Assembly: GCF_014822185.1 (NCBI RefSeq)
Contig: NZ_QVLR01000107.1
Span: forward strand, 124,001 to 188,000
Source: Azoarcus sp. Aa7
GTDB lineage: Bacteria; Pseudomonadota; Gammaproteobacteria; Burkholderiales; Rhodocyclaceae
Length of the DNA: 64,000 nt
Direction of reading: 5' to 3'
In this document: piece by piece, positions 11,120-60,867 of the stretch
How positions within the stretch are numbered: the first letter of the stretch is position 1
Layout: each line of letters starts with the position of its first letter
Made by a program: the position numbers and the translations under genes
Notes under the pieces: model-generated
The model's database searches: none
What the model saw: only the letters and a program-made list of their open reading frames with translations
What the model was told of the DNA's origin: nothing

Positions 11120-11130
11120 GGCCCGTCTCC

Positions 11131-11583
11131 TCATGGCGCCGTGCCGATTTCGAAGGTCGACGACGCTCCGGATGCCTTGTCGACGGTGGTGATCTTCAGC
11201 ACACCGCCGCCGAGGTCTACGATGGAAACGCTGAATGCGTCTGTCTCCACGGTGCCGGCCTTCAGGTCGCCATTAGTGTCGAAGATGCTTCCGGTGACGC
11301 TCGTGGCGATGCGATCGAGGATCATCGATTGCAGCCGCTGATTGAACGTTTCCAGCGCAGTGGGCGGCTTGTAGCCCGAGGCGCCCTTGTTCGTGGATGG
11401 ATCCGTATGGCGATTCTGGGCGTTGGCGTTGTTCAGCAGTACTGAGCCGTTGATCGGACTGCCGCCGAACGACGGATTTACCGGCGCATAGACGAGGTTC
11501 GTTGCTAGAGCCGCTGGCGGACAGCTGCATAGGGTCAAGGCGGTCAATATCTTCGCCGTGCCTTTATTCAGGCAATGCTTCAT
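11131..11583 (-). CDS. csgF: Curli assembly factor CsgF
   Basis: CsgF is a small exported protein that caps the outside of the CsgG pore and couples secretion to nucleation by CsgB. The 150-aa precursor has an N-terminal signal peptide ending near ALAT, then the CsgF hallmark NPSFGGSPINGSVLLNNANAQ, whose N-terminal NPxFGG part inserts in the CsgG channel in studied homologues. A helical middle follows (TFNQRLQSMILDRIATSV), then a C-terminal beta domain (FSVSIVDLGGGVLKITTVDKASG) ending in the family's typical FEIGTAP-like tail. The ATG at 11583 is preceded by GGAGAAAG. It lies between csgE and csgG on the minus strand. Confidence 0.93.
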   Translation of the reverse strand: MKHCLNKGTAKILTALTLCSCPPAALATNLVYAPVNPSFGGSPINGSVLLNNANAQNRHTDPSTNKGASGYKPPTALETFNQRLQSMILDRIATSVTGSIFDTNGDLKAGTVETDAFSVSIVDLGGGVLKITTVDKASGASSTFEIGTAP

Positions 11584-11631
11584 GCTCTTTCTCCGTGGGG
11601 AATGACAGGTGCCGGATCGCTCGCGGGGCGC

Positions 11632-12090
11632 TTACGGCAGTTCCTCTTTTCCGAGATCCGGATCGACTGCCAGGCGGTTCAGCAGAGCAATGTTGGCAAT
11701 GCGCCCCGCCATGTACTGCGCCGTGTTCTGGGCCAGTGGCCGGATGGAGTTGCTGCTGCCAGCCTGCAGGAATACCCGTGCGACCGGCCGGTTGTTGTGC
11801 TCGACGATGACCGTGCTGCCCCAGCGGGCGGACGGTTTCTCGACGATGGTGAGGTCGACCGATCCGGTATCTGCCTGGGTGCGCCAGAACTGCGCGAACT
11901 GCCGTACGAATTCGCCGCCGAAATGGGTGATCGTCCGATCGACGATGAAACCCGTGGCCTGCTCCAGGGTGCCGTTTGCCAATTCAGTCAGGGCGCCGCT
12001 GTCGATAGGGCCGTCCTCGTTCGCTGCGGCCACCGGAAGCGGCGGACAAAAGGCGATCAGCAGCGCTACGACCGGGAGAATTCTGATCAT
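11632..12090 (-). CDS. csgE: Curli assembly/transport factor CsgE
   Basis: CsgE is the periplasmic adaptor that binds curlin and plugs the inner side of CsgG to direct secretion. The 152-aa product has a signal peptide (MIRILPVVALLIAFCPPLPVAA) and the CsgE core, GFIVDRTITHFGGEFVRQFAQFW followed by VDLTIVEKPSARWGSTVIVEHNNRPVARVFLQAG. Both blocks follow the family pattern of a TIT..G..F...F..W motif and a beta-rich export domain. I chose the ATG at 12090, which overlaps the csgD stop (ATGA) and gives the signal peptide directly. The GTG/ATG starts farther upstream read through csgD codons. Coupled translation with csgD is likely. Confidence 0.92.
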   Translation of the reverse strand: MIRILPVVALLIAFCPPLPVAAANEDGPIDSGALTELANGTLEQATGFIVDRTITHFGGEFVRQFAQFWRTQADTGSVDLTIVEKPSARWGSTVIVEHNNRPVARVFLQAGSSNSIRPLAQNTAQYMAGRIANIALLNRLAVDPDLGKEELP

Positions 12091-12770
12091 TTGCCGTCCC
12101 ATGTCATCGGCTCGAGGTTCTTCATGGCCCAGGACGCTGCCTGCACCCGGTTGGTGACCTTGATCTTCCTGAAGAGGTTGTAGACGTGGGTCTTCACCGT
12201 ATGGGGACTGACCTTCAGGGTGCGCGCGATGTCCGCATTGCTGGCCCCTTCGCTCATCAGGCGCAGACTTTGCATTTCCTTCGGGGTGAGGGAGGTGGCA
12301 CCAATTGGCTGCAGGTGCCGCACGGTTCGCGTGTCTTCGACGTAATCGGTGAGCATCTTGCGCGGTACCCACCATTCGTCGTTGCTGAGTGCCTGTACGC
12401 CCTTGAGGAGTTGTTCCTCTGACGTGTCACGGTGAAACAGGCCCTTGAACTTGGGCCAGCGAAGCAGCCGTGCGCTCGGTATGTCGTGGTTGGCATTGAA
12501 GAGCGCCACGGCACTGACCAGGGCATCGTCGCCGAGTACCGTCATGTGGGTGTCGATCTGGTCGTTCGCCGACAGGCCGATATCGAGCAGGGCGACGGAC
12601 TCGGCCGTATGCTGAGGCCACCCGGCCTCATCAAGTGTGGCAACGACGCACCGGCTTCCCAGATGGCGCTCCAGGAGCGCGGCCAGCAGTTTGTTCTGCA
12701 GGCTGGGACGGCCGACGATAACCACGCCTTTGGTCGCCGTGAAGGCGGTTTCGGGCGCATGTTTCGACAT
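12087..12770 (-). CDS. csgD: LuxR-type curli master regulator CsgD
   Basis: CsgD is the LuxR/FixJ-family activator of curli and other biofilm-matrix genes. The 227-aa protein has a degenerate receiver-like N-terminal half (GVVIVGRPSLQNKLLAALLE, SVALLDIGLS). Its C-terminal LuxR HTH includes LTPKEMQSLRLMSEGASNADIARTLKVSPHTVKTHVYNLFRKIKVTNRVQAASWA, very close to the E. coli CsgD pattern (GASN.EIA..L..S.NTVKTH.YNLFKKI.V.NR.QA.SWA). It is the first gene of the leftward csg unit and faces csgB across a 629-bp gap. In enterobacteria csgD expression rises with c-di-GMP; the two GGDEF-EAL proteins in this window make that link plausible here but unproven. Confidence 0.92.
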   Translation of the reverse strand: MSKHAPETAFTATKGVVIVGRPSLQNKLLAALLERHLGSRCVVATLDEAGWPQHTAESVALLDIGLSANDQIDTHMTVLGDDALVSAVALFNANHDIPSARLLRWPKFKGLFHRDTSEEQLLKGVQALSNDEWWVPRKMLTDYVEDTRTVRHLQPIGATSLTPKEMQSLRLMSEGASNADIARTLKVSPHTVKTHVYNLFRKIKVTNRVQAASWAMKNLEPMTWDGK

Positions 12771-47584: not shown

Positions 47585-49375
47585 ATGACCGACTACGCCG
47601 CGCCCCTGCGCGACATGCACTTCATCCTGCGCGAGCTCGCGGGGCTCGACGCCGTCGCAGCGCTGCCGGGCTGCGAGGAGGCGACGCCGGACGTCGTCGA
47701 GGCCATCCTCGACGAGGCCGGCAAGTTCGCCTCAGGCGTGCTCGCCCCGATCAGCCGTGCGGGCGACCTGCAGGGCTGCCGGCTGGGAGCGGACGGACGT
47801 GTCGCGAGCGCGGAGGGCTGGAAGGAGGCGTGGCAGCAGTTCGTGGCGGCCGGCTGGACCGGCTTGTCGCTGCCGGTCGAATACGGCGGGCAGGGTCTGC
47901 CCAAGCTGGTTTCAACGCCGGTCTGGGAGATGTGGTTCTCGACCAACATGGCCTTCGCGATGCTGCCGCAGCTCAACGTCGGGCAGGCGGAAGCCTTGCA
48001 GATCGCCGCGAGCGAGGAACTCAAGCGCACGTGGCTGCCCAAGGTCGTGAGCGGTGAGTGGGGCAGCACGATGAACCTCACCGAACCGCAGGCGGGCTCG
48101 GACCTCGCGGCGACGCGTGCCCGCGCCGAGACGGCGGCGGACGGCACTTACCGTGTCTTCGGCCAGAAGATCTTCATCTCCTGGGGCGAGCACGAGCTGA
48201 CGGAAAACATCGTCCACCTCGTGCTCGCCCGCCTGCCGGATGCGCCGGCGGGGGTGAAGGGGCTGTCGCTGTTCCTCGTGCCGAAATACCTGCTCGACGC
48301 CGACGGCCGGCCCGGCGCGAAGAACGACGTGCGCTGCATTTCGATCGAGCACAAGATGGGCATCCACGGCAGCCCGACCTGCACGATGAGCTACGGCGAT
48401 GCGGGTGGCGCAGTCGGCTGGCTGGTCGGCGAGCCGAATCGCGGGCTGGAGACGATGTTCATCATGATGAACGAGGCGCGCTTCGGCGTCGGCGTGCAGG
48501 GCGCGGGCCTCGGCGAACGCGCCTACCAGATGGCGCTCGCCTATGCGCGCGAACGCGTGCAGGGGCGCGACCCGATCACCGGCGAGGCCGGCAAGCCCAT
48601 CCTGTGCCACCCCGACGTCAAGCGCATGCTGCTGTCGCTGCGCGCGCGCGTGATGGCGATGCGGGCGCTGCTGTACACGGCGGCGGCGTGGTTCGACACC
48701 GCCCACCATCACCCGGACGCGGCGGTCGCGGGCAAGGCGCAGCGCTACGTCGACCTGCTGATGCCGGTCGCGAAGGGGTGGTGCACCGAGGTCGGCCAGC
48801 AGGCCTGCTGGGACGCGATCCAGGTGTTCGGCGGCATGGGCTTCGTCGAGGAGACCGGCATCGCGCAGTTCGCGCGCGATTCGCGCATCATCACGATCTA
48901 CGAAGGCACGACCGGCATCCAGGCAAACGACCTGGTCGGCCGCAAGATCCTGCGCGAAGGCGGCGAGACGCTGCGCGAGCTGATCGCCGAGTTGCGTACG
49001 ACGATTACGGCGCTGCGTGCCGAGCCCGGCTTCGGTCCCATGGTCGACGGGCTCGCCGAGAACGTCGGAGCGCTGAGCGAAGCGACGCACTGGCTGCTCG
49101 CGGCCGGCAAGGAGCGCCACGTCGAGGCGCTCGCGGCGGCCGTGCCTTTCCTGCATCTCCTCGGCACCGTCTGCGGCAGCTGGCAGATGGCGCGCCTCGC
49201 GCTTGCGGCGCGCCGGTGCCTGGCGGCGGGCGAGGGCGACGCCGCCTACCAAGCGAGCCTGGTCGAGCTGGCGTGTTTCTGGATGGCGACCTTCGCGCCC
49301 CAGGCCGCGGCGCACCTGCGCACGGTGCAGTCCGCCGGGGCGCCCCTTTCGGCTTTCGACGACACCGAGTTCTGA
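47585..49375 (+). CDS. Acyl-CoA dehydrogenase
   Basis: A flavoprotein of 596 aa that introduces the 2,3-double bond in acyl-CoA. It has the longer form with a C-terminal extension seen in the DmdC/AcdA-like group. Motifs are GWTGLSLPVEYGGQGLP, MNLTEPQAGSDLAATRARAE, the flavin/substrate region KIFISWGEHELTENIVHLVLARLPDAP, IEHKMGIHGSPTCTM, AIQVFGGMGFVEETGIAQFARDSRI, and the catalytic-base region TIYEGTTGIQANDLVGRKI. Physiological acceptor is usually ETF. It completes a ligase-dehydrogenase-hydratase-dehydrogenase-thiolase set. Substrate is uncertain; DmdC-type relatives include short thioether and aryl acids. Confidence 0.92.
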   Translation: MTDYAAPLRDMHFILRELAGLDAVAALPGCEEATPDVVEAILDEAGKFASGVLAPISRAGDLQGCRLGADGRVASAEGWKEAWQQFVAAGWTGLSLPVEYGGQGLPKLVSTPVWEMWFSTNMAFAMLPQLNVGQAEALQIAASEELKRTWLPKVVSGEWGSTMNLTEPQAGSDLAATRARAETAADGTYRVFGQKIFISWGEHELTENIVHLVLARLPDAPAGVKGLSLFLVPKYLLDADGRPGAKNDVRCISIEHKMGIHGSPTCTMSYGDAGGAVGWLVGEPNRGLETMFIMMNEARFGVGVQGAGLGERAYQMALAYARERVQGRDPITGEAGKPILCHPDVKRMLLSLRARVMAMRALLYTAAAWFDTAHHHPDAAVAGKAQRYVDLLMPVAKGWCTEVGQQACWDAIQVFGGMGFVEETGIAQFARDSRIITIYEGTTGIQANDLVGRKILREGGETLRELIAELRTTITALRAEPGFGPMVDGLAENVGALSEATHWLLAAGKERHVEALAAAVPFLHLLGTVCGSWQMARLALAARRCLAAGEGDAAYQASLVELACFWMATFAPQAAAHLRTVQSAGAPLSAFDDTEF

Positions 49376-49468
49376 ACTCTTGCCTGGCGCCCGCCTGCGC
49401 GCGGGCAAGCCGGCCGCGCGGTCGTGGTCTATCGTGAGCAGTGGATGACCTGACCAGGCGGGGGCCCC

Positions 49469-51679
49469 ATGAGCCGGACCGTGAACGTGTTTGTCAGCTA
49501 CAGTCACGACGACGGCGCATGGTGCGACGTCGTCGTGAAGCATCTGCAGGGCCTGCACGACCCGATCGAGGTCGAGGTGTGGATCGACCGCAAGGGCATC
49601 CGCGCCGGCGACAAGTGGCTGCCGGAGATCGAGTCCGCGCTCGCGCAGGCCGACCTCGCGCTGCTGCTGATCAGCCCGTCCTTCCTGAGCTCCGATTTCA
49701 TCCGCAAGACCGAACTGCCCAAGCTGCTCGCGCGCAGCAAGGAAGGACTGCGCGTGATTCCGGTGCAGATCATCCCCAGTGCGTGGGAAGTGATCAACTG
49801 GCTCAGGGAAACCGAGCTGCGGCCCAAGGAACGGGACGAGAAGACGCGCAAGATCAAGGCGCTGGCTGAGTTCGGAAACGAGAAATCGGTCGCGGTGAGC
49901 CGCAGGCTCAGTGACCTGATGGTCGAGATCGCGGGAATCCTCCGCGAGGACGCAAACGAAGCGAACAACGCGAAACCGGGTGCCGGGAACGGTCGCAACC
50001 AGGCGAACGATGACGCGCATGCGCGCGCGGCGGTGTCGCTGCTCGTCGCGACGCTGCTGCAGGAGATGCCTGTCGAGGTGCGCGAGCCCTTCGCGCGGCG
50101 GAGCGTCGAACGCCTGGCGGAGTTCTGCAAGCTGTCGGGCGAGGCGCTTCTCTGCGCGGTGCGCCTTTTCGTCGAGTATCAGCTGCTGCGCGCCGATGCG
50201 CCCACGTCGGTACTGGAGCTGCAGGACACGCTCGACGGGCTGGACGACGACGAGACCGCGCAGCGTCTCGCCAGCGAGCTGAAGCGCGGCGCGCACGATG
50301 GCGACTTCAGCGGCAGCGTGATCGAGATGAAGTCGCTGTTTTTCATGCTCGCACGGGAACGTGAGGCGCTGTGGGAGAGCTACTTCGACGCCCTTGCGCG
50401 GACCGCGCGCGATACCCCGGCACGCGATGCGATCGCGACGCTCGCGCGCATCCGGGTGAACCTCGGCTTCATCGCGCCGCAGTTCCTCGTCGCCGGGCTG
50501 CTGTCGCGCTTCGAGGACGACTGGCGTCCGGTCCTCAACGCCTACCGGCACTCGATTCCCAAGGCGGGCGGGCGCTCGGGTGCCTTCGAGAGCCTGCAGG
50601 CCTCGCAGTGGAACTGCTGGCTGGTATGGGGCCCCAGCATCCCGATCTGCCGCTGCGCGCAGTGGCAGGGGCGTTTTGCGTACCAGTACGGGTACGGCGA
50701 CGAAAACAACTCGCTGCCGTTGATCGAGCTCGACCTTGCCGACAGCGGCGAACCGCGCACCCTCGGCCCCCTGGTGTCGGATCTCGCTGCCGAGGGACGC
50801 GGCGCGAAGCTGGTGCAACTCACCGGGCGGCTGCGCTGGGGACCGGATTTCCAGCGCGAAGGCGGCGACCCGGGCACGCACCCGACGGACGACGACTCGA
50901 CGCTGGACCTGATCGACGAGCTGGAGCGCGACGACAGCGGGGAGGAACCGCAGCCGCGCAAGTATCCGATGGCCGCCGCTCAGGCGAGCCTGTGGTGCGG
51001 CGATGGTCCGCAGCACGCGCATCACGCCGACGGTCTCGTGCTGCAGCTGGAGTCCGTCGACCAAACCGTCGAGGAGACGCGCGTGTACTTCTCCGCCTAC
51101 CTGTGGATGATGTTTCTCGTCGCGCTCGCCCGGCCCGATCCGACCGATCCGGACATCGGTCCGCGCCTGCTGCGCCGCAAACCCTATCCGTCATGGCCGG
51201 AGAGTCCGGCCGAGCGCGTGCGCGTCGGCGACGCCCGCCTGTGGGAGAACCTGCTGCCGGTCTTCGTGCACGCCAACGTGGCCGACCCGGCGGCGCTGCA
51301 TTTCCAGCGGCGCGCGGTGGTCGAGAACAGCGTCCAGTTGCTGCGCCAGGTGTGGGAGCGGCGGAGCGAGTTCTTCGACGCCGACGACGTGGCCAGCGGC
51401 ATCCGCTTCCACCTCGTGTGCAGTTCGGATTACTCGGGTTGCGACTGTGAGATCCGCTACGCCTCGGCCGACCCCTTGCCCGAGTTGCTGCGCGAGCGTC
51501 TCGTGGCGGAGGGCGATCGCGACTTTGCCGCGTCCGTGGTCGTGCCGGGCAGTTCCGACAACCCTGCGCAGCGACCGTGGGGGCTCGCCGGCTATTTCTC
51601 GTCCTGCCACCTGCCCGAGCTGGTCGCGGACTACTTCGGCTATGTCGACAAGCTTCAGCGGCAGAAGCCGCGCCGCTAG
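49469..51679 (+). CDS. TIR-domain protein with large uncharacterised C-terminal region
   Basis: A 736-aa protein with an N-terminal TIR domain (about 1-150) of the prokaryotic type: box 1 VNVFVSYSHDD (5-15), DRKGIRAGDKWLPEIESAL (40-58), and SFLSSDFIRKTEL with Glu82 at the position used by NADase TIR enzymes. Many bacterial TIR domains cleave NAD+ or make signal molecules, often in phage defence, so such activity is plausible. The remaining about 580 residues match nothing I recognise. They include an acidic helical part, WNCWLVWGPSIPICRCAQW, and a HAHHADGLVLQLESVDQT segment, with no membrane segments. It overlaps the GNAT gene by 38 bp. The start at 49469 (GGGGG upstream) fits the TIR edge. 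Confidence 0.85.
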   Translation: MSRTVNVFVSYSHDDGAWCDVVVKHLQGLHDPIEVEVWIDRKGIRAGDKWLPEIESALAQADLALLLISPSFLSSDFIRKTELPKLLARSKEGLRVIPVQIIPSAWEVINWLRETELRPKERDEKTRKIKALAEFGNEKSVAVSRRLSDLMVEIAGILREDANEANNAKPGAGNGRNQANDDAHARAAVSLLVATLLQEMPVEVREPFARRSVERLAEFCKLSGEALLCAVRLFVEYQLLRADAPTSVLELQDTLDGLDDDETAQRLASELKRGAHDGDFSGSVIEMKSLFFMLAREREALWESYFDALARTARDTPARDAIATLARIRVNLGFIAPQFLVAGLLSRFEDDWRPVLNAYRHSIPKAGGRSGAFESLQASQWNCWLVWGPSIPICRCAQWQGRFAYQYGYGDENNSLPLIELDLADSGEPRTLGPLVSDLAAEGRGAKLVQLTGRLRWGPDFQREGGDPGTHPTDDDSTLDLIDELERDDSGEEPQPRKYPMAAAQASLWCGDGPQHAHHADGLVLQLESVDQTVEETRVYFSAYLWMMFLVALARPDPTDPDIGPRLLRRKPYPSWPESPAERVRVGDARLWENLLPVFVHANVADPAALHFQRRAVVENSVQLLRQVWERRSEFFDADDVASGIRFHLVCSSDYSGCDCEIRYASADPLPELLRERLVAEGDRDFAASVVVPGSSDNPAQRPWGLAGYFSSCHLPELVADYFGYVDKLQRQKPRR

Positions 51680-53090
51680 CGGGCATTTTCGCGAACTCGA
51701 CGCGTCGCCCGGCGGGCTGGCGGCGCTGGAGCGCTTCTACGACGAGCGCTACGTCGCCGAGTTCCCCGACCCCGACGAACGCGAGTCGCTCGACAACATG
51801 CGGCGCTACCTGCTGCTGAAGGCGCAGGGTTGGTACGGGAGCAACAACTACCACATCGTCGTCGCCGAACTCGACGGCGAAGCGGTCGGGGGCGTCGTGT
51901 TCGACTATCTCGCCCTGCCGCGTGCGGGCGTGATCGAATTCCTGTTCGTCGCTTCGGACCGCCGCGAGTCGGGCATCGGCCGCGCACTGCTGGACGAGGC
52001 GATCCGCCTGCTGCGCCGGGACGCCCGCCGGCACGGCGCGCGCCTGGCCGCCGTGGTCGCCGAAATGAACGATCCCTTCCGCCGTCCCGCGACGCCCGAC
52101 AACATGGACCCCTTCCGGCGCGCGGCGATCTGGGGCCGCTGGGGCTTCGGCGTGCTCGAATTCCCCTACGTCCAGCCCGCGCTGTCGGCCGGACAGCAGC
52201 CGGTCGACGGCCTGCTGCTGATCATGCGTCCGTTCGGGCGTGTGCCGCGGTCGGGCTTCCGCTCGCACTGGGTCGAACTCGTCGTCGCGGAGTATCTGCG
52301 CTGGGCGATGCGCATCGAGAACCCCGCGGCGGACCGCGATTTTCTCGCGATGTCCGACGCGCTCGCGTCGCGTCCGCGCGTCGCGCTGGTTCCGCTCGGT
52401 CGCTACGCCGGCCAGGACCCGACGGACGGATTGGTGGTCGAAGTCGTGTCGTCGCCAGATCGGCGCTCGGACGGTATCGCGACGGCGGCCGCGATCGCCC
52501 GCGCGGCGATTCCCGTCCCCGGTCGCGTCGCCGCACAGCAGGATTTTGCCGCGGCCTTCGCGCTCGGCGACAGCGGCGCGGCGCACTACCACCTGTGGCT
52601 GTTGCGCACGGCACCGGACGCCCCGGCCGAGGGCATGGCGAGCTTCTTCACGCTGCCAACGGCCGGTTTCGGCGGCTATCTCGTCCTTGCCGGAAGCCTG
52701 CGCGGGCGCGGCCTGCTGCGCCGGGCGGTCGCACGCATCGAGGCGCGCATGAGGCAGGACGGGACGTCCGCGGACGGCTGGTTCATCGAATGCGGCGCGG
52801 AATCGGTGGCGGTGTTCCGGCACATCGGTTTCATCGACGTGCCGTGTGACTACCGCCCGCCCGCGGTGGGCGAGGCGTCGCCGGGCGGGGCACCGGAACG
52901 TCTGCACCTGCTGTTCAAACCCTTCGGAATGCGCCGCGAGCCGGACCGTCTCGAGCGCGATTTCGTGTCCCGCGCGCTGCGGGAAATCCTGTGCTCGGTT
53001 TATGCGATCGGCAATCCTGAGGCCGCTTCCTGCTATCGGCGGGTGCTGCGGACGCTGGCCGACGGCGATCTTCGCGGGGCGCGGCGATGA
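51642..53090 (+). CDS. Tandem GNAT-fold acetyltransferase-like protein
   Basis: A 482-aa protein with two GNAT-like folds. The first (about 15-165) has a good acetyl-CoA motif A, FLFVASDRRESGIGRALLDEA (about 101-121). The second (about 220-445) has LAGSLRGRGLLRRAVARIEARM (from about 350), then ECGAESVAVFRHIGFIDVP, a typical GNAT tail. The acceptor is unknown. The ATG at 51642 lies inside the end of the TIR gene (38-bp overlap in another frame) and has no clear ribosome site, so translation is probably coupled to the TIR gene. A downstream promoter at 53145 starts a separate operon. Confidence 0.85.
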   Translation: MSTSFSGRSRAASGHFRELDASPGGLAALERFYDERYVAEFPDPDERESLDNMRRYLLLKAQGWYGSNNYHIVVAELDGEAVGGVVFDYLALPRAGVIEFLFVASDRRESGIGRALLDEAIRLLRRDARRHGARLAAVVAEMNDPFRRPATPDNMDPFRRAAIWGRWGFGVLEFPYVQPALSAGQQPVDGLLLIMRPFGRVPRSGFRSHWVELVVAEYLRWAMRIENPAADRDFLAMSDALASRPRVALVPLGRYAGQDPTDGLVVEVVSSPDRRSDGIATAAAIARAAIPVPGRVAAQQDFAAAFALGDSGAAHYHLWLLRTAPDAPAEGMASFFTLPTAGFGGYLVLAGSLRGRGLLRRAVARIEARMRQDGTSADGWFIECGAESVAVFRHIGFIDVPCDYRPPAVGEASPGGAPERLHLLFKPFGMRREPDRLERDFVSRALREILCSVYAIGNPEAASCYRRVLRTLADGDLRGARR

Positions 53091-53144
53091 ATGTAGGTGC
53101 TTGAAAACCATGCTTTTATCAGGGCTATTACCCGACAAAAGCGG

Positions 53145-53173
53145 TTGGATATCGGGCGTCGATTTGCTATAGA
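53145..53173 (+). promoter_or_regulatory. Sigma70-type promoter for the sensor-kinase operon
   Basis: TTGGAT (53145-53150), a 17-bp spacer and TATAGA (53168-53173) fit a sigma70 promoter well. The region around it is unusually AT-rich. It would start the kinase-regulator-GGDEF/EAL operon about 75 bp before the 53256 ATG. Confidence 0.65.
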
Positions 53174-53255
53174 TACGTCATGGATGGGGATTCATCTCCG
53201 CAACACGGAGCGATCTCCCCGAATCCGCGTCGCGTTCGCGAACCGGGGAGTGCAC

Positions 53256-54737
53256 ATGGCGATGGACGTTTGCGGTCTCCTGCTGGACGAGGCGCCCGAT
53301 GCATTCGTGGTGCAATCGCCGGAGGGGATCGTCCTGCACTGGAGCAGGAGCGCCGAATCCATCTTCGGTTACGTGGCGAACGAAGTCGTGGGGCGGGACC
53401 TGCTCGACCTCATCGTGCCCGCCGACCGCGCGGACGAGGAACGCAGCATGCGGTGCGAGGCGCTGGAAACGGGCTTCGCCGCGATCGAATCGCTGCGGCG
53501 CTGCAAGGACGGTTCGCTGGTCTTCGTCTCGATCAGCGCGAAGACTGTGGGCGACGGCCAGGGACGGCCGCAGTACCTGATCGTGTGCAAGAAGGACGTC
53601 ACGCAGCTCAAGGTGATGCGCGACGCGAAACTCGTGGACGCACGCTACAGCAAGCTGCTTGAGTCGATGCCTGACGGCATCGTGCTGATCAACGCGTCGG
53701 GGCGCATCGTCTTCGCGAACAGCCAGGCCGAGGCCATGTTCGCCTACGAGGCGGGGCGCCTGCGCGGCCTGCCGGTGGAAGCGCTGCTACCCGAGCGCCT
53801 GCGCGGTGGGCACGTGGCACATCGTTCGGCCTACTTCGGTCAACTGCGCACGCGGGCGATGGGCATGGGGCTGGAGCTGTACGGCCTGCGTCAGGACGGC
53901 AGCGAGTTTCCGGTCGAGATCGGCCTCAGTCCGCTGGAGACGGGGGAGGGCACGCTGGTGACCAGTGCGATCCGTGACATCACCGAACGCAAGCGCATCG
54001 AGCGTGCGCTGCACGAGAAGAACGTCGAGCTCGCAAAGGCCAACGCCGCGAAGGACCGCTTCCTCGCGAGCATGAGCCACGAGCTGCGTACGCCGCTCAA
54101 CGCGATCATCGGCTTCACCGGCACGCTGCTGATGAAACTGCCGGGACCCCTGAACGAGGTGCAGGAAAAGCAGCTGCGCCGCGTCCAGTCCGGCGGCCAG
54201 CACCTGCTCGAACTCATCAACGATCTCCTCGACATCGCGAAGATCGAGGCCGGCAAGGTCGAACTGGTGGTGGAACCCCTGGATTGCCGGACGGTCGTGG
54301 AGGACGTGGCCGCGACGCTGCGTCCGGCGGCGGAAGGGAAGGGACTGGCCTTCGCCATCGAGGTCGTCGACGAGTCCTTGCGGCTGTCGACCGACCGGCG
54401 TGCTTTCAGTCAGATCCTCATTAACCTGGTGCAGAACGCGATCAAGTTCACCGAGCGCGGATGCGTCACGATCCGGCTCGCGCGGCGGATCGAGGGCGAG
54501 CTTGCGCTGGTCGAGGTCAGCGTCCGCGACACCGGCATGGGCATCGGCGATGAGGACCTGCAGCGCCTGTTCGCCCCGTTCTCGCGCATCACGCCGCGCA
54601 GCGGCAAATTTGCCGAGGGAACCGGTCTCGGCCTGCACCTGAGCCAGAAGCTCGCCGGGCACATGGGCGGCCGGATTACAGTGGAAAGCGCGCCAGGGGT
54701 CGGCAGCACTTTCGCGCTCGTGTTGCCGGAGGGATGA
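53256..54737 (+). CDS. PAS-domain sensor histidine kinase
   Basis: A 493-aa cytosolic sensor kinase with no membrane segment. It has two PAS domains (about 8-125 with APDAFVVQSPEGIVLHWSRSAESIFGY, and about 130-250 ending AIRDITERKRIE). A HisKA domain carries phospho-acceptor His275 in FLASMSHELRTPLNAIIGF; the HATPase domain has N-box LINLVQNAIKFTE, G1 VRDTGMGIGDE, F-box and G2 GTGLGLHLSQKLAGHMGG. The ATG at 53256 has GGGGAG a few bases upstream; upstream in-frame codons to 53097 cross the promoter and are excluded. It overlaps the next gene (ATGA). Confidence 0.93.
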   Translation: MAMDVCGLLLDEAPDAFVVQSPEGIVLHWSRSAESIFGYVANEVVGRDLLDLIVPADRADEERSMRCEALETGFAAIESLRRCKDGSLVFVSISAKTVGDGQGRPQYLIVCKKDVTQLKVMRDAKLVDARYSKLLESMPDGIVLINASGRIVFANSQAEAMFAYEAGRLRGLPVEALLPERLRGGHVAHRSAYFGQLRTRAMGMGLELYGLRQDGSEFPVEIGLSPLETGEGTLVTSAIRDITERKRIERALHEKNVELAKANAAKDRFLASMSHELRTPLNAIIGFTGTLLMKLPGPLNEVQEKQLRRVQSGGQHLLELINDLLDIAKIEAGKVELVVEPLDCRTVVEDVAATLRPAAEGKGLAFAIEVVDESLRLSTDRRAFSQILINLVQNAIKFTERGCVTIRLARRIEGELALVEVSVRDTGMGIGDEDLQRLFAPFSRITPRSGKFAEGTGLGLHLSQKLAGHMGGRITVESAPGVGSTFALVLPEG

Positions 54738-55144
54738 GCGTGGCGGTGCGCATCCTCCTCGTCGAGGACAACCCGGCGAACCTCGAACTCGTCAGCTACC
54801 TGCTCGAAGCGGCCGGGCACATCGTGCTGATCGCCGAGGACGGCCGGCAGGGGCTGGAACTCGCCCGCAAGGAGCCGCCCCCCGACCTCATCGTCAGCGA
54901 CCTGCGCATGCCCGTGATGGACGGCTTCGAAATGCTTCGACACATCCGCATGGACGCCACCCTGAACGATGTCCCCGTGATCGCGGTCACAGCGTTCTCG
55001 ATGTCGGGCGACCAGACTCGGGTGATGCTCGCGGGCTTCGACGGCTACATCTCCAAGCCCATCGTTCCAGAGACCTTCGTCAGCGAGGTCGAAGCCTACC
55101 TGAAGGCCGGACGGCGCAAGGCCGGACCGCCCGCCGACCCGTGA
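54734..55144 (+). CDS. Single-domain response regulator
   Basis: A 136-aa stand-alone receiver domain. Acidic pocket EDN (11-13), phospho-acceptor Asp56 in LIVSDLRMPVMDG, Thr in VTAFS and Lys108 in GYISKPI are all present. With no output domain it likely relays phosphate or acts by protein contact, as DivK- or CheY-like regulators do. It is coupled by ATGA to the kinase before it and followed by a second receiver-containing protein, so a relay through this operon is plausible. Confidence 0.93.
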   Translation: MSVAVRILLVEDNPANLELVSYLLEAAGHIVLIAEDGRQGLELARKEPPPDLIVSDLRMPVMDGFEMLRHIRMDATLNDVPVIAVTAFSMSGDQTRVMLAGFDGYISKPIVPETFVSEVEAYLKAGRRKAGPPADP

Positions 55145-55156
55145 GGATGCGTGCCG

Positions 55157-57931
55157 ATGGCGAAGATTCTTGTCATAGACGACCATGCCGCGAATCGCGA
55201 ACTCATCGTTGCCCTGGCTGGCTACGAGGGGCACGAGGCGCTGGAGGCGGGCGACGGCGCCGAAGGGCTCGCCATCGTGCGGGCGCAGCGTCCGCAGCTG
55301 GTCATCTGCGACATCCTCATGCCCAACGTGGACGGTTACGAGTTCGTGCGCCGGCTGCGTGCGGATCCGGCGATCGCCGATACGCCGGTGATCTTCTATA
55401 CGGCCAATTACCACGAGCGCGAAGTGCGCAACCTCGCCGGCATCCTCGGCGTGTCGCGCATCCTCGTGAAGCCCTGCAACCCCGATGACATCGTGCGCGC
55501 CATCGACGACACGCTCCGCCAGGCGGTGAAGGAATTGCCGCCCGCGAGCGACGCCGAATTCGAGCGCGAGCACTTGCGCGTGCTCACCGACAAGCTCGCC
55601 GCCAAGGCCGAGGAGCTCGAACGCCGCGCCGCGGATCTCGCGGGCGAGGTCGAGACCCGCAAGCTCGCCGAGGCGCAGCTGCGGCGTGTGCTGCGCGCGC
55701 GCAACGTGATGGCCGAGTGCAACCGCACGCTGGTGCGCGCCACCGACGAGCGGCGGCTGCTCGCGGACATGTGCCGCTTCCTCATCGAGCTCGGGAACTA
55801 CGGCATCGCGTGGGTGAGCCTGGCGTGGCACGACGCCGACTGCACGGTGGAGACGGTCGCCGCCGCGGGCGAGGGGGCCAGCCTGCTGAAATCCTTCCGC
55901 TTTTCGTGGGGCGACAACGCCTGTGGCAACGGTCCGGTGGGCGAGGCGGTGCGCACGCGCGCACCGCAGGTCGTGCACGACATCGCGTCGGACCCGCGCC
56001 TTGTGCGCTGGCGCGAGGCGGCACTCGGACGCGGCTTCCAGGCGGCCGCGGTGCTGCCCCTCGTGTTCGAGCACGAGACTTTCGGCGTGCTGTGCATCGT
56101 CACGCGGGAGAAGGAAGCCTTCGATGGGGACGAGCTCGAGCTGCTCGGCGAGCTGGCGGACGACATCGCCTACGGCATCCACACGCTGCGCGCGCGCGTC
56201 GTGCAGCAGCGCACTGAGGAGACGTTGCGCCTGCGCAACCGCGCCATCGACGAGAGCATCAACGCCATCGTGATCAGCGCGGCCGATCGCGAGGCCGATA
56301 ATCCGGTGCTCTACGTGAACCCCGCCTTCACGCTGATGACCGGCTATGCGCCCGAGGAGATCATCGGGCGCAACACGCGCCTGCTGGTCGGCGACGACTG
56401 GGACCAGCCCGATATCGAGCGTCTGCGCGAGGCGGTGCGCCGCGGGCGCGATGCTCGGGTCACGCTGCGCTGCTACCGCAAGGACGGTTCGCTGTTCTGG
56501 AACGAGATCTCGCTCGCGTCGATGCACGACCCGAGCGGGCGCGTGTCGCACTTCATCTCGATCTTCAACGACCTCACCGACCGCAAGCGCTACGAGGCGG
56601 AGCTCGAACAGCAGGCCAACCACGACGCCCTGACCGGACTCGCCAACCGCAACCTTCTCAACGACCGCCTGCAGCAGTCGATGATCCGCGCGCAGCGCAA
56701 CGCCGGCGCGGTGGCCGTGATGCTGCTCGACCTCGACCGCTTCAAGCTGATCAACGACAGCCTCGGCCATGCCGTCGGCGACGAACTGATCTGCGAGGTG
56801 GCACGGCGTCTCGCCGCCTGCGTGCGCCAGGGCGACACCGTGGCGCGCCTCGGCGGCGACGAGTTCATGATCGTCATGTCCGAGCTGTGGGCCGAAAGCG
56901 ATGCCGCGTCGCTCGCGGCCAAGGTGCTGCAGCGCGTGTCGGCGCCGATGAAGCTGTCGGGCCACGAGATCGTCGTCACCGGCAGCCTGGGCGTCGCGCT
57001 GTTTCCGCGCGACGGCGAATCGGCGGCCCTGCTGGTGAAGAATGCCGACGTCGCGATGTACCGCGCGAAGGAGCAGGGGCGCAACGACTTCCGCTTCTAC
57101 GCGCCCGAGATGAACGCACGCATGCTCGAACGCCTGGAACTCGAAAACGGCCTGCGCCGGGCGCTCGACCAGGGCGAGCTGGAACTGCACTACCAGCCCA
57201 AGGTCGAGCTCGCCAACGGGCATGTGGTCGGCGCCGAGGCGCTGATCCGCTGGCGCCATCCGGTGCTGGGCATGGTGTCGCCGGCCGATTTCATCCCGCT
57301 GGCGGAGGAAACGGGGCTCATCGTGCCGATCGGCGAATGGGTCATCAACACCGCGTGCCGCCAGTTGAAGGCCTGGCGCGAAGAAGGGCTCACAGGGGTC
57401 AGCGTCGCGGTCAATGTCTCGGCGCGGCAGTTCCAGCAGGACGACCTCGTCGGCGTGCTGGGCGAGGCCTTGCGCGCGTCCGGGGTGCCGGCGCGGAGCC
57501 TGCACCTCGAAGTCACCGAGAGCGGCGTGATGAGCAACCCGGAGCGCACCATCGTGATCCTGCGCACGCTCAAGGACATCGGCGTGCTGGTCTCGCTCGA
57601 CGACTTCGGCACCGGCTATTCCAGCCTGAACTACCTCAAGCGCTTCCTCATCGACAGCGTCAAGATCGACCAGTCCTTCGTCGCCGACCTCACGACGTCT
57701 TCGGAGGACGCCGCGATCGCCCGCATGGTCATCTCGCTCGCCCACAGCCTCAACCAGACCGTCGTCGCCGAAGGCGTCGAGACCGTGGCGCAGCTCGACT
57801 TCCTGCGCCGCCACCGCTGCGACGAGATGCAGGGCTTCCTGTGCAGCCGTGCGATTCCCGCCGCCGAGTTCGCCGGGATGATCCGCGACGGGGGCTGCGT
57901 GCTGCCGTCACTGGCAGGTGCACTGCACTAG
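55157..57931 (+). CDS. REC-GAF-PAS-GGDEF-EAL c-di-GMP enzyme
   Basis: A 924-aa multidomain protein. It consists of a receiver (about 1-125, Asp52 in LVICDILMP), a short coiled coil, a GAF domain (about 180-350), and a PAS domain (about 365-480). GGDEF (about 490-650, intact RLGGDEF and A-site) and EAL (about 665-915, intact GAEALIRW, EVTESGVMSN, LDDFGTGYSS, VAEGVET) follow. Both catalytic domains look active. The PAS has the LOV-like element GRNTRLLVG, with Thr where photosensory LOV domains have Cys. The ATG at 55157 gives MAKILVIDD; a GTG at 55151 adds two residues. It follows the response regulator by 12 bp. Confidence 0.94.
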   Translation: MAKILVIDDHAANRELIVALAGYEGHEALEAGDGAEGLAIVRAQRPQLVICDILMPNVDGYEFVRRLRADPAIADTPVIFYTANYHEREVRNLAGILGVSRILVKPCNPDDIVRAIDDTLRQAVKELPPASDAEFEREHLRVLTDKLAAKAEELERRAADLAGEVETRKLAEAQLRRVLRARNVMAECNRTLVRATDERRLLADMCRFLIELGNYGIAWVSLAWHDADCTVETVAAAGEGASLLKSFRFSWGDNACGNGPVGEAVRTRAPQVVHDIASDPRLVRWREAALGRGFQAAAVLPLVFEHETFGVLCIVTREKEAFDGDELELLGELADDIAYGIHTLRARVVQQRTEETLRLRNRAIDESINAIVISAADREADNPVLYVNPAFTLMTGYAPEEIIGRNTRLLVGDDWDQPDIERLREAVRRGRDARVTLRCYRKDGSLFWNEISLASMHDPSGRVSHFISIFNDLTDRKRYEAELEQQANHDALTGLANRNLLNDRLQQSMIRAQRNAGAVAVMLLDLDRFKLINDSLGHAVGDELICEVARRLAACVRQGDTVARLGGDEFMIVMSELWAESDAASLAAKVLQRVSAPMKLSGHEIVVTGSLGVALFPRDGESAALLVKNADVAMYRAKEQGRNDFRFYAPEMNARMLERLELENGLRRALDQGELELHYQPKVELANGHVVGAEALIRWRHPVLGMVSPADFIPLAEETGLIVPIGEWVINTACRQLKAWREEGLTGVSVAVNVSARQFQQDDLVGVLGEALRASGVPARSLHLEVTESGVMSNPERTIVILRTLKDIGVLVSLDDFGTGYSSLNYLKRFLIDSVKIDQSFVADLTTSSEDAAIARMVISLAHSLNQTVVAEGVETVAQLDFLRRHRCDEMQGFLCSRAIPAAEFAGMIRDGGCVLPSLAGALH

Positions 57932-58009
57932 CTTTCGCCGTTCGCTCCCCGCATTGGCACTAGAATGCGGCTGCTACAGTCCGCACAACACGGCCTCGTG
58001 CCGCCCCCC

Positions 58010-59917
58010 ATGTCCGAAACTTCCCTGCGCGTCCTGTCGGTGATCCCGCCGATGACGCAACTCAACACCCCGTACCCTTCGACGGCCTACCTCACCGGCT
58101 TCCTGCGTTCGCGCAGCGTCGATGCGGTGCAGGAGGACCTCGCGCTCGCGCTCGTGCTGCGCCTCTTGTCGCGCGACGGCCTCACCGCGATCCGCGACCG
58201 CATCGAGGCGACGCCCGAGCGCCAGCGCAGCTCGCGCGTGAGGGCCTTCCTCGCGCAGTTCGAGCGCTACCGCATCACGATAGGCCCGGCCATCGCCTTC
58301 CTGCAGGGGCGCGACCCGACCCTCGCGAACCGCATCTGCGGGCGCAACTTCCTGCCCGAAGGCTCGCGCTTCGAATCGCTGGACGTCTACATCGACCCGG
58401 AAGGCGGCGACCCGCTCGCGTGGGCCTTCGGCGCGCTGGGGCTGGAAGACCGCGCCCGCCACCTCGCGACGCTGTACCTCAACGACGTCGCCGACGTGCT
58501 GCGCGAAGCGGTCGATCCGCGCTTCGAGTTCGTGCGCTACGCCGAATCGCTGGCGCAGAGCCAGGCGAGCTTCGAGCCGCTGGCGCTGGCGCTCGCCGAG
58601 CCGCTCAACCTCGTCGACGAGACGCTGCGCGAACTCGCGCTCGATGCGATCGCCCGCCATGCGCCGCAGGTCGTGCTGCTTTCGGTGCCCTTTCCCGGCG
58701 CGGTGTATGGCGCCTTCCGCATCGCGCAGGCGATCAAGGCGCGCGACCCGCAGATCGTCACGGTGCTGGGCGGCGGTTTCGTCAACACCGAACTGCGCGA
58801 ACTCACGGAGCCGCGCGTCTTCGACTACTTCGATTACGTCACGCTCGACGACGGCGAGCGCCCGATCCTCGCGCTGCTCGACCACCTGCAGGGCGGCCGC
58901 GGCCGTTCGCGCCTGGTGCGCACCTTCTTCCGCGACGCCGACTCGGGCGAGGTGCGCTACGTGAACCTCGGCGAGGCCGACATCGCCTTCGCCGAAGTCG
59001 GCACCCCGACCTGGGACGGCCTGCCGCTCGACCGCTACCTGTCGGTGCTCGACATGCTCAACCCCATGCACCGCCTGTGGTCGGACGGTCGCTGGAACAA
59101 GCTCACCGTCGCGCACGGCTGCTACTGGAAGAAGTGCAGCTTCTGCGACGTCAGCCTCGACTACATCTCGCGCTACGACGGCGCGAGCGCGAAGACGCTG
59201 GTCGACCGGATCGAGGCGATCATCGCCGAGACAGGGCAGACCGGCTTCCACTTCGTCGACGAGGCCGCACCGCCCAAGGCCCTGAAGGCGCTCGCGCAGG
59301 AACTCCTGGACCGCGGCGTGGCGATCTCGTGGTGGGGCAACATCCGCTTCGAAAAATCCTTCACCCCGGACCTGTGCCGCCTGCTCGCCGAGAGCGGCTG
59401 CATCGCCGTGTCGGGCGGGCTGGAGGTGGCGTCGGACCGCCTGCTGCAGCTCATGAAGAAGGGCGTGTCGGTCGACCAGGTCGCGCGCGTCACCAACGCC
59501 TTCACCGAGGCCGGCATCCTCGTGCACGCCTACCTGATGTACGGCTTCCCGACCCAGACCGTGCAGGACACGGTCGACGCCCTCGAATACGTGCGCCAGC
59601 TGTTCGAATCCGGCTGCATCCAGTCCGGCTTCTTCCACCGCTTCGCGTGCACGGTGCATTCGCCGGTCGGCCAGAACCCGGACGAATACGGCGTGAAGCT
59701 CGTCCCGCTGCCGCCCGTGACCTTCGCCAAGAACGACGTGCGCTTCATCGACCCGACCGGCGTCGATCACGACCAACTGGGCGTGGCGCTGAACAAGGCG
59801 CTCTACAACTACATGCACGGCATCGGGCTGGACCAGGACGTGCGCAGCTGGTTCTCCGACCGGGTTCCGCGCCCCCGCGTGCAGCGCAACTTCATCGAGC
59901 GGGCCTTGCGCTATTAA
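58010..59917 (+). CDS. B12-binding-domain radical SAM protein
   Basis: A 635-aa enzyme combining an N-terminal cobalamin-binding-like domain (VIPPMTQLNTPYPSTAYLTGFLRS; RHAPQVVLLSVPFPGAVYGAFRIAQAIKARDPQIVTVLGGG) with a radical SAM domain. The cluster motif is Cys371-x4-Cys376-x2-Cys379 (GCYWKKCSFCD), one residue longer than the usual CxxxCxxC. FHFVDEAAPPKALKALAQEL, SWWGNIRFEKSFTPDLCRLLAESGCIAVSGGLEVASDRLL and AYLMYGFPTQT are typical later segments. The substrate is unknown; class members methylate or rearrange unactivated carbons. I used the ATG at 58010; the ATG at 57965 overlaps a TAGAAT -10-like box. Confidence 0.88.
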   Translation: MSETSLRVLSVIPPMTQLNTPYPSTAYLTGFLRSRSVDAVQEDLALALVLRLLSRDGLTAIRDRIEATPERQRSSRVRAFLAQFERYRITIGPAIAFLQGRDPTLANRICGRNFLPEGSRFESLDVYIDPEGGDPLAWAFGALGLEDRARHLATLYLNDVADVLREAVDPRFEFVRYAESLAQSQASFEPLALALAEPLNLVDETLRELALDAIARHAPQVVLLSVPFPGAVYGAFRIAQAIKARDPQIVTVLGGGFVNTELRELTEPRVFDYFDYVTLDDGERPILALLDHLQGGRGRSRLVRTFFRDADSGEVRYVNLGEADIAFAEVGTPTWDGLPLDRYLSVLDMLNPMHRLWSDGRWNKLTVAHGCYWKKCSFCDVSLDYISRYDGASAKTLVDRIEAIIAETGQTGFHFVDEAAPPKALKALAQELLDRGVAISWWGNIRFEKSFTPDLCRLLAESGCIAVSGGLEVASDRLLQLMKKGVSVDQVARVTNAFTEAGILVHAYLMYGFPTQTVQDTVDALEYVRQLFESGCIQSGFFHRFACTVHSPVGQNPDEYGVKLVPLPPVTFAKNDVRFIDPTGVDHDQLGVALNKALYNYMHGIGLDQDVRSWFSDRVPRPRVQRNFIERALRY

Positions 59918-60279
59918 GGCGGCAATCAAATAGGTGAAGTCTGCTGGGGCACCGTGGTACTCCCCCTTCAAGGGGGGCGGAGCAGGGGTTTCGGCGAGCA
60001 CTGCTCGCCGCCTGTGGAGCGGCGAGGCGAAGGCGAGACTACCGGTCAGGAGGGGGATGGGTTTCCGCAGTAACGCACTGCGAACCTTCGCTGCGCAATG
60101 GACTCAAAAGAAAATACGGATTCATCGACCGGCCCGAAAGCGGGTAGTGCCGCTACCCGAAGGGAGGTATCGGAGATATCTTTGATTTCGATAATAATTT
60201 TGCAAAATCGGGGCTTTAACATCGACCGGTAAATCGGCATCAGACCGCAGCCGGACAGGATTCAATGGAGGAGACAGCA
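59918..60279 (+). promoter_or_regulatory. Structured non-coding region before the 195-aa protein gene
   Basis: These 362 bp contain no gene signature but several inverted repeats. They are CCCCCTTCAAGGGGG (59962-59976), CGGCGAGCA-C-TGCTCGCCG (59992-60010), CGGGTAG-N5-CTACCCG (60141-60159), and the palindrome ATTTTGCAAAAT (60197-60208) inside an AT-rich stretch that may be the promoter. It does not match c-di-GMP riboswitch cores I know. GGAGGAG before 60280 is the ribosome site. Confidence 0.5.
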
Positions 60280-60867
60280 ATGAGCATGACACCGAACGAA
60301 CGACTCTCCGCACCCAATCTGGAGAACGAGTTCATCCCGCCCGTCGGGCAGGGCGAGGCGAGCGAGATCGCGTGGGATCAGCGCCTGAATGCCGAAGTGG
60401 CGTGGCAGCTCGCACGTGCGACCGTCGATGACGGACTCGCGCAGTGGACGGACAGCGCCGGGGAGGGCGCGCCGCGGCGCCTGCCGACAATGCGCACGAT
60501 CGCGCGCATGAACACCGCCCTCGTGGCGCTGCGCGAACGGCTCTACCAGATCCAGAACGAGGCCGCGAACATTGCGATCTCCGAGCTGGCATTGCGGCAG
60601 GAGGCCGATCCCGCCGCGTCGTCCGACGATGCGTTCTCCCCGCTGCATGCCCAGAACGCGCGCCGGATCGAGGCACTGGCCGCGTCCTGCTACGGGCTGC
60701 TGGCCGCGGCGCAGGGCAACCTCGCGGCGGTGGCGGGCAAGGTGCCGGTCGAGTATTCCGCCGATTCTGGCACCTCTGGCCGTGCCGGGCTGGAGGACTC
60801 GTTGTACGCCGAACGCCGTCAGTCCGACGCGGTCATCAACTTCCCGGATCGCCGCGCCGCCGCGTGA
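60280..60867 (+). CDS. Uncharacterised 195-aa protein
   Basis: I do not recognise this protein. It is 195 aa, Ala-rich and mostly helical, acidic near the N-terminus (SAPNLENEFIPPVGQGEASE) with a central region RTIARMNTALVALRERLYQIQNEAANIAISELALRQEADP that could form a coiled coil. The tail ends AVINFPDRRAAA. No signal peptide, membrane segment or Cys-rich motif is visible (one Cys). The ATG at 60280 has GGAGGAG upstream; 60265 is an in-frame alternative. Its codon use matches the neighbours, it has a clean intrinsic terminator after it, and it is monocistronic, so it is likely a real gene. Confidence 0.75.
   Translation: MSMTPNERLSAPNLENEFIPPVGQGEASEIAWDQRLNAEVAWQLARATVDDGLAQWTDSAGEGAPRRLPTMRTIARMNTALVALRERLYQIQNEAANIAISELALRQEADPAASSDDAFSPLHAQNARRIEALAASCYGLLAAAQGNLAAVAGKVPVEYSADSGTSGRAGLEDSLYAERRQSDAVINFPDRRAAA

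Follow-up and report, generated by a model that had tools for sequence, protein, structure and literature searches.

The question raised by this locus is what a bacterium gains from a gene for a TIR-domain protein that runs into the gene for a protein with two GNAT (acetyltransferase) domains. The locus lies in Azoarcus sp. Aa7, within positions 124,001 to 188,000 of contig NZ_QVLR01000107.1 (G000:C107:124001-188000), a stretch of 64,000 nucleotides that we call the window; its genus, Aromatoleum, is represented in our sample by 17 genomes. Based on comparisons of sequence we propose, giving it about an even chance, that the pair is a two-gene accessory conflict module of new composition, probably anti-phage and acting by cell suicide. 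That the GNAT protein is the regulator of such a module is possible and is put forward more tentatively.

Adjacency, coupling and borders of the pair

The genes and the cassette that carries them are as follows; X denotes the C-terminal region of the TIR protein, which we refer to as TIR-X.

49469..51679, + strand: TIR-X gene, 736 aa, ATG start
51642..53090, + strand: tandem GNAT gene, 482 aa, ATG at 51642, stop ending at 53090
51642..51679, + strand: overlap of the TIR-X and GNAT genes, 38 bp
49376..53143, + strand: whole accessory cassette, 3,768 bp, replaced by 85 bp in genome G005

The GNAT gene adjoins the X-domain gene in all 11 X loci found, namely the window, the seven other Aromatoleum TIR-X loci, two metagenome-assembled genomes (MAGs) and a plasmid of Novosphingobium sp. 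PP1Y. As the genes are adjacent in every relative found and both proteins remain 50-54% identical to those of the window in the two MAGs, the pair appears to be more than a chance arrangement.

An earlier reading, made from the letters of the window (the sequence-only reading), had placed the two frames at these positions and took their overlap, together with a missing ribosome site before the GNAT gene, as signs of coupled synthesis. Both open reading frames and the 38-bp overlap are present, and by eye no Shine-Dalgarno-like stretch was seen directly 5' of the GNAT ATG. The exact 38-bp overlap recurs in three of 10 loci (the window, L009 and L011, the last via an alternative GTG start); in six of the 10 the nearest GNAT start candidate lies 1 nt past the TIR stop, and in the MAG locus L021 it overlaps that stop by 4 nt. 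The gene starts in these 10 loci are in keeping with coupled synthesis, which fails as a general rule, since the Novosphingobium GNAT gene is convergent with its partner. A search for sigma-70 type promoters found none, and terminator-like sites numbered three against 1.8 +/- 1.3 in shuffled sequence. The G+C content at third positions (0.88 in TIR-X and 0.86 in GNAT) is close to that of four neighbours (0.87-0.93) and gives no clear sign of a foreign base composition.

The C-terminal part of TIR-X was found in 8 of the 17 Aromatoleum genomes. The corresponding stretch was examined in eight of the nine pair-free genomes, G010 being left out (no radical-SAM match at 1e-100), and in all eight the acyl-CoA dehydrogenase and radical-SAM genes that serve as anchors were present, with neither TIR nor GNAT found at 1e-20. 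In the sole pair-free site aligned base by base, L047 of G005, the blastn alignment with the window ends at 49375, the stop of the acyl-CoA dehydrogenase gene, and resumes at 53144, with a spacer of 85 bp between. In three of the eight stretches no more than ~100 bp separate the acyl-CoA dehydrogenase gene from the kinase gene, and a tree of the radical-SAM gene from 16 genomes requires at least three changes in the presence of the pair. On these comparisons the pair is an accessory cassette that was gained or lost more than once. No direct or inverted repeats of at least 8 bases were found between 49340-49480 and 53060-53200.

Domains of the two proteins

49484..49792, + strand: TIR domain, residues ~6-108 (Pfam TIR_2, 1.2e-14; PADLOC ThsB, 6.8e-16)
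49712..49714, + strand: codon of Glu82, putative catalytic NADase glutamate, invariant in 10/10 sequences and aligned with solved TIR chains
50018..51676, + strand: X region, residues 184-736, core from ~303, no library family
51759..52043, + strand: first GNAT domain, residues ~40-134, motif RRESGIGRA (Acetyltransf_1, residues 40-130)
52584..52841, + strand: second, more degenerate GNAT domain, residues ~315-400 (FR47, residues 335-399)

The Pfam TIR_2 match covers residues 7-102 (55.3 bits against a cut-off of 28), and the ThsB profile PDLC00420 covers residues 6-108. Upon a sequence search of PDB chains the TIR domain aligned with 7uxr (3.5e-5), 7uwg and AbTIR 8g83 (0.0015), and Glu82 falls opposite the conserved glutamate of those chains, including that of the NAD+ hydrolase AbTIR; this residue is presumably the catalytic one of TIR NADases. 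The 10 sequences in which Glu82 is invariant come from eight Aromatoleum genomes, including that of the window, and the two MAGs. The placing of Glu82 at the NADase position by the sequence-only reading is thereby upheld, and the TIR domain may be an NADase.

Past about residue 110 the TIR protein gave no Pfam, PADLOC or NCBIfam match at E values up to 1, and the best PDB profile match of its C-terminal region, AtRbcX1, reached only 0.053. The region that could not be assigned from the letters thus resists assignment by these libraries too, with no known enzyme matched by sequence. Its core carries the motifs WGPSIPICxC, QYGxGDENNS, SAYLW and HxNxxDP and recurs in the Novosphingobium protein P0004, with 24% identity over 473 columns and an E value of 2e-26 in a single pairwise comparison. 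The alignment that spans the window and Novosphingobium has 474 columns, 80 of them invariant in all seven rows; these include five of the nine aligned cysteines (Cys383, 394, 396, 658 and 713; Fisher p 0.009), as well as GDENNS and His601. The invariant cysteines and histidine suggest a metal or redox site. AlphaFold models built with seven sequences each had a mean predicted local distance difference test (pLDDT) score of 43.0 for TIR-X and 54.7 for the GNAT protein, and in TIR-X only the blocks at ~181-240 and 671-690 rose above a mean of 70.

As to the GNAT protein, Acetyltransf_1 matches the window's sequence at 2.6e-13 in two stretches (50.7 bits against a cut-off of 20.7), and FR47 matches the second half at 0.0026, under its cut-off. 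R108 and G111 are invariant in 13 of 13 aligned GNATs; we take RRESGIGRA to be the acetyl-CoA motif of the first domain. A Foldseek search with the low-confidence model returned the tandem GNAT protein 2wpx as its best match (5.4e-6), the whole-chain TM-scores of the listed matches being 0.17-0.23 by query length. The two GNAT folds claimed earlier are therefore there, strong in the first half and below the cut-off in the second. The members of the family from plasmids and from genome G210 are 238-305 aa long, too short for a second domain, and the plasmid ones were joined to the family via pairwise similarity.

Relatives in metagenome-assembled genomes and on plasmids

A scan of 84,980 species genomes with short peptide patterns gave six loci, four in Aromatoleum and two in Burkholderiales MAGs at 54-56% identity; as the scan returned four of the eight known Aromatoleum loci, its silence elsewhere is weak evidence. 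The two MAG loci, each of 21.6 kb, have a single block of 7.25 kb in common, with 74% DNA identity, and nothing else at blastn 1e-5.

L021:9322-16573 and L022:9283-16719: five-gene MAG block between unrelated flanks, with TIR-X, tandem GNAT, TrkA_N membrane protein, PGDYG and patatin

The TrkA_N matches are sub-threshold (1.5e-4 and 3e-3), PGDYG is matched at 1e-27 and patatin, on the opposite strand, at 7e-22. The patatin also matches the PADLOC 'Effector, Phospholipase' models at 2.1e-37, which we take to be those of the cyclic-oligonucleotide-based anti-phage signalling system (CBASS). When GTG starts are assumed, the TrkA_N gene overlaps the GNAT gene by 7 nt and the PGDYG gene overlaps the TrkA_N gene by 4 nt; the TrkA_N protein queries included 4 and 13 codons ahead of those GTG starts. 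Searches run without a positive control found the TrkA_N protein in none of the 17 genus genomes, none of 130 order genomes and on no plasmid. A RyR-like C-terminus of this protein, suspected by eye, was not confirmed by Pfam up to E 10 or by a PDB search.

In the plasmid search with X, 15 of 16 matches were dropped, being to the TIR domain only. The Novosphingobium plasmid locus, first found via X and found again via GNAT, encodes the X core without a TIR domain (P0004), and a hydropathy scan predicts a membrane segment at residues 25-58. Its convergent GNAT gene (P0005) is single-domain and overlaps the X gene by 37 bp; the product is 30% identical to the GNAT of the window (3e-14, single comparison) and 44% to a Sphingobium GNAT.

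Searches that started from the GNAT protein (plasmids, 229 class genomes and the family of G210) added members in Sphingobium, Croceicoccus, G210 and G322, the last matched in two frames and possibly broken. In all four of these loci the GNAT gene adjoins a gene for a large protein that we term Y.

L026:7848-10031, L025:7862-9589, L029:6409-7764 and L058:5343-6677: Y genes, with a conserved IGxxPYxxLxH...NEAL stretch

C-terminal membrane segments are predicted in all three Y proteins measured, and the Y proteins scanned have no Pfam model above its cut-off and no PADLOC match. Homology between X and Y was looked for and none was found (hhalign probability 0.1). X and Y are two families that no Pfam model matches above its cut-off and in which PADLOC recognizes nothing apart from the TIR domain; among them, NCBIfam models were run on the TIR-X of the window only. 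Since the N-terminus of X varies and the GNAT gene stands beside both X and Y, it looks as though GNAT, rather than TIR, is the constant element and the killer part is exchangeable.

A proposed conflict module, its likenesses and its rivals

CBASS and Thoeris are modular conflict systems, and it is by likeness to such systems that we read TIR-X as trigger and killer and GNAT as regulator. The points of likeness are a module fused to TIR, the exchange of TIR for a membrane segment, carriage on mobile DNA, the company of a patatin and a constant partner enzyme. The exchange of TIR or membrane segment at the N-terminus of X fits an arrangement in which the C-terminus senses and the N-terminus kills, and the mobility suggested by the 7.25-kb block between unrelated MAG flanks and by the plasmid members was counted in favour of the conflict reading. 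In the proposed mechanism X, with its five invariant cysteines, would keep the TIR domain off and answer a trigger; activated TIR domains would then come together and use up NAD+, or produce an ADP-ribose signal, and the cell would be halted. The GNAT protein would set the threshold, either through acetylation of X or through the supply or removal of a ligand that X reads; it might alternatively hold the system off, switch it on or be a second toxin. The MAG version would add patatin and the TrkA_N membrane protein as effectors, which may respond to the TIR product.

The sequence-only reading had the C-terminal region as sensor, TIR as effector and the GNAT protein as modifier of a target or keeper of the off-state. 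Its interpretation gained from the co-occurrence of the pair (seven of seven other Aromatoleum TIR-X loci and both MAGs), from the effector-like MAG neighbours and from the unmatched C-terminus; it gave way in one respect, namely that GNAT and not TIR appears to be the constant element. We also consider a wider proposal, somewhat unlikely as it stands, of a GNAT-centred immune family in which a constant acetyltransferase governs exchangeable sensor-effector partners (TIR-X, membrane-X and Y with its C-terminal membrane segments) and in whose largest form the TIR product drives the patatin lipase and the nucleotide-binding TrkA_N membrane protein. If it is true, acetylation becomes a control step in NAD+-based immunity. 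TIR proteins act in bacterial, plant and animal immunity, and a standing question is what restrains them. If a coupled acetyltransferase persists as the killer domains are exchanged, this would indicate a control step that the accessible parts of the TIR papers found do not mention. For such studies the eight pair-free Aromatoleum stretches offer a natural comparison set.

The pair resembles Thoeris in its TIR domain with a glutamate at the NADase position, in the match to PDLC00420 and in being a unit of few genes. It differs in that no SIR2-SLOG or macro-domain gene was found among the neighbours scanned, in the ~580-residue X fused to TIR and in the GNAT partner. The ThsB match is confined to the TIR domain, the ThcB4 model of Thoeris scored 15.6 bits against a cut-off of 220, and a ThsA-type effector was not found among eight window proteins including the pair (46.6-59.9 kb) or among the MAG neighbours scanned (TrkA_N, PGDYG, patatin and hemerythrin). 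The likeness to CBASS lies in the MAG patatin with its phospholipase effector matches, whereas none of the eight window proteins scanned around the pair is a patatin, and no CD-NTase was found among the window and MAG neighbours scanned, which fall short of every open reading frame; a CBASS identity of the pair is unsupported. Toxin-antitoxin modules of the TacT/AtaT type have small GNAT toxins and share with the pair a GNAT in a coupled two-gene unit; here the coupled gene encodes a 736-aa TIR-X in place of a small antitoxin, and the GNAT has two domains.

In the parts of the publications available to us, GNAT domains are described as recruited into DndF and bacteriophage exclusion (BREX)-related defence loci (PMC10853773, PMC12839542), either as fusions to large DNA-targeting machines or encoded alongside them and, in those parts, never beside such a TIR protein. 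Likewise, TIR ATPases and TIR proteins are stated, in the accessible part of PMC7159879, to accompany FxSxx systems with radical-SAM processed peptides. The locus resembles these FxsC/VMAP and FxSxx systems in having a TIR protein near a radical SAM and peptides, and differs in that no vWA or MoxR gene was found among the neighbours scanned and that the radical SAM is resident; the FxsC N-terminal model NF040588 scored 13.2 bits against a cut-off of 130. The features tested set the pair apart from Thoeris, FxSxx systems and GNAT toxin-antitoxin modules. Among the matches listed in the literature search, mostly outside subscription journals, no title or abstract start describes a TIR-X/GNAT pair; PADLOC and these titles and abstract starts are in agreement with the earlier remark that no described defence family is known to have this pairing.

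Several observations weigh against the conflict module. The AlphaFold models are too poor for an X fold or a complex to back the putative sensor role. PADLOC recognizes only the TIR domain of TIR-X and the MAG patatin and has no match in the GNAT protein. The plasmid GNATs are weak in Pfam (no match for P0005, 7e-4 and 6.6e-4 for the other two, just under the cut-offs), and the membrane version of X was seen in one protein, P0004, which has a second hydrophobic stretch at 429-451, inside the core. Coupled translation is not general, as noted above for Novosphingobium. The family is also rare in the genomes sampled: outside the window's genome, matches to the X profile numbered 0 in 368 class, 0 in 398 order and 1 in 397 phylum genomes, the lone phylum match (G849, 5e-4) having internal stops and being dropped, and GNAT profiles matched 0 of 348 other phylum genomes (A9) and 1 of 228 other class genomes (A6, in G210); as some genomes belong to more than one of these samples, the counts cannot be taken as independent. 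No other copies were found in phage records or viral contigs. The site itself is variable, as seven of the eight pair-free stretches have other DNA at some point between the anchors. As for defence genes nearby, foreseen by the sequence-only reading as a check, putative effectors stand beside the pair in the two MAGs, and none was found in a Pfam scan of 17 other window proteins, which are part of the window's genes.

Among the rivals a toxin-antitoxin-like pair fares best, although we regard it as unlikely. The GNAT protein would be a toxin, acetylating tRNA or protein and restrained by its partner, or else an antidote that keeps TIR-X off by acetylation. Tight coupling of the gene starts, plasmid carriage beside annotated RelE/ParE toxin and killer protein genes and the differing partners of one GNAT family all speak for it. 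However, a partner of 450-740 aa with TIR or membrane segments is not a small antitoxin, and a two-domain GNAT of 482 aa is unlike the small GNAT toxins.

The other two rivals draw on the genes around the pair, which in the window are these.

47585..49375, + strand: acyl-CoA dehydrogenase, resident upstream neighbour and not part of the system, in 8/8 pair-free stretches
53256..57931, + strand: PAS histidine kinase, response regulator and GAF-PAS-GGDEF-EAL protein, resident and not part; the start at 53256 was chosen by us
57965..59917, + strand: B12-binding radical SAM protein, resident and not part, in 16/17 Aromatoleum genomes

Upstream, the acyl-CoA dehydrogenase was not found in four of the eight pair-bearing loci (L010, L012, L013 and L015), where two divergent genes for peptides with a double-glycine (GG) leader stand instead; beyond these, on the TIR strand, come genes for a sigma-54 regulator, an ABC exporter with C39 peptidase and cNMP-binding domains, and a PpiC-like maturation protein. 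The GG-leader pairs (L012:12922-13548, L010:7095-7721, L013:12719-13346 and L015:6375-6995) have leaders ending in MSEVRGG or MSAVRGG and N-rich cores, and neither Pfam nor NCBIfam matched the two peptides of L012. Of the 17 Aromatoleum genomes, 5 have homologues of the first peptide, with three to five matches per genome. In G002 the TIR gene shows 68-89% DNA identity to that of the window, against 93-98% for the GNAT and kinase genes and 93-99% for the GNAT gene together with the genes after it, a contrast that was counted in favour of the conflict reading. We infer that the G002 TIR allele and the island upstream of it were replaced together, the edge of the exchange lying near the TIR/GNAT boundary.

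It is conceivable from this arrangement, with the radical-SAM gene downstream, that the pair belongs to a system of ribosomally synthesized and post-translationally modified peptides (RiPPs) or bacteriocins, in which TIR-X and GNAT mature the peptide or give self-immunity, and the leader homologues in five of eight pair-bearing and none of nine pair-free genomes (Fisher p 0.009, relatedness not corrected) agree with it, as does the printed precedent of TIR ATPases beside FxSxx peptide systems (PMC7159879, in part). Against this, the radical SAM is present in 16 of 17 genomes irrespective of the pair, a search of the window's genome for the L012 peptide gave no homologue at 1e-3, the MAG loci lack peptide, exporter, PpiC, regulator and radical-SAM genes (1e-3, ~10 kb on each side) and the annotation around the Novosphingobium pair shows no such gene. 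When the window was scanned by regular expression for GG-type leaders, the one kind of RiPP precursor looked for, none appeared. We consider this peptide role quite improbable.

The least probable rival, which we all but set aside, is a metabolic or signalling regulator that reads NAD+/acetyl-CoA status for the adjacent kinase and cyclic di-GMP enzymes, for although the kinase, regulator and GGDEF-EAL genes follow co-directionally in seven of eight Aromatoleum loci, they persist without the pair in three of eight pair-free stretches, were not found in the pair-bearing L014, and kinase and cyclic di-GMP genes are absent from the MAG loci. Together with the radical-SAM gene they had been candidates for parts of the system and were rejected after comparison with pair-free genomes; being found in such genomes, they are taken as resident, and the conflict module as we propose it is confined, in the window, to the two genes of the cassette.

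The remaining observations concern the surroundings. The radical SAM protein is 86-100% identical across the 16 genomes that have it, and PhpK-like and RiPP C-methyltransferase models score far under their cut-offs. Downstream of it, 60265-60867 encodes a small protein with a Pfam Death_3 match under the cut-off (0.073), and a similar one was seen by eye at L013:1002-1592. The DNA between the anchors in pair-free L050:2241-12044, L048:2243-4207 and L051:9499-12804 encodes, by eye, a GntR/aminotransferase-like regulator, phosphate-transport-like proteins and others. At 10175-12375, a stretch of lower G+C (~61-62%) carries the curli export genes csgG and csgE.

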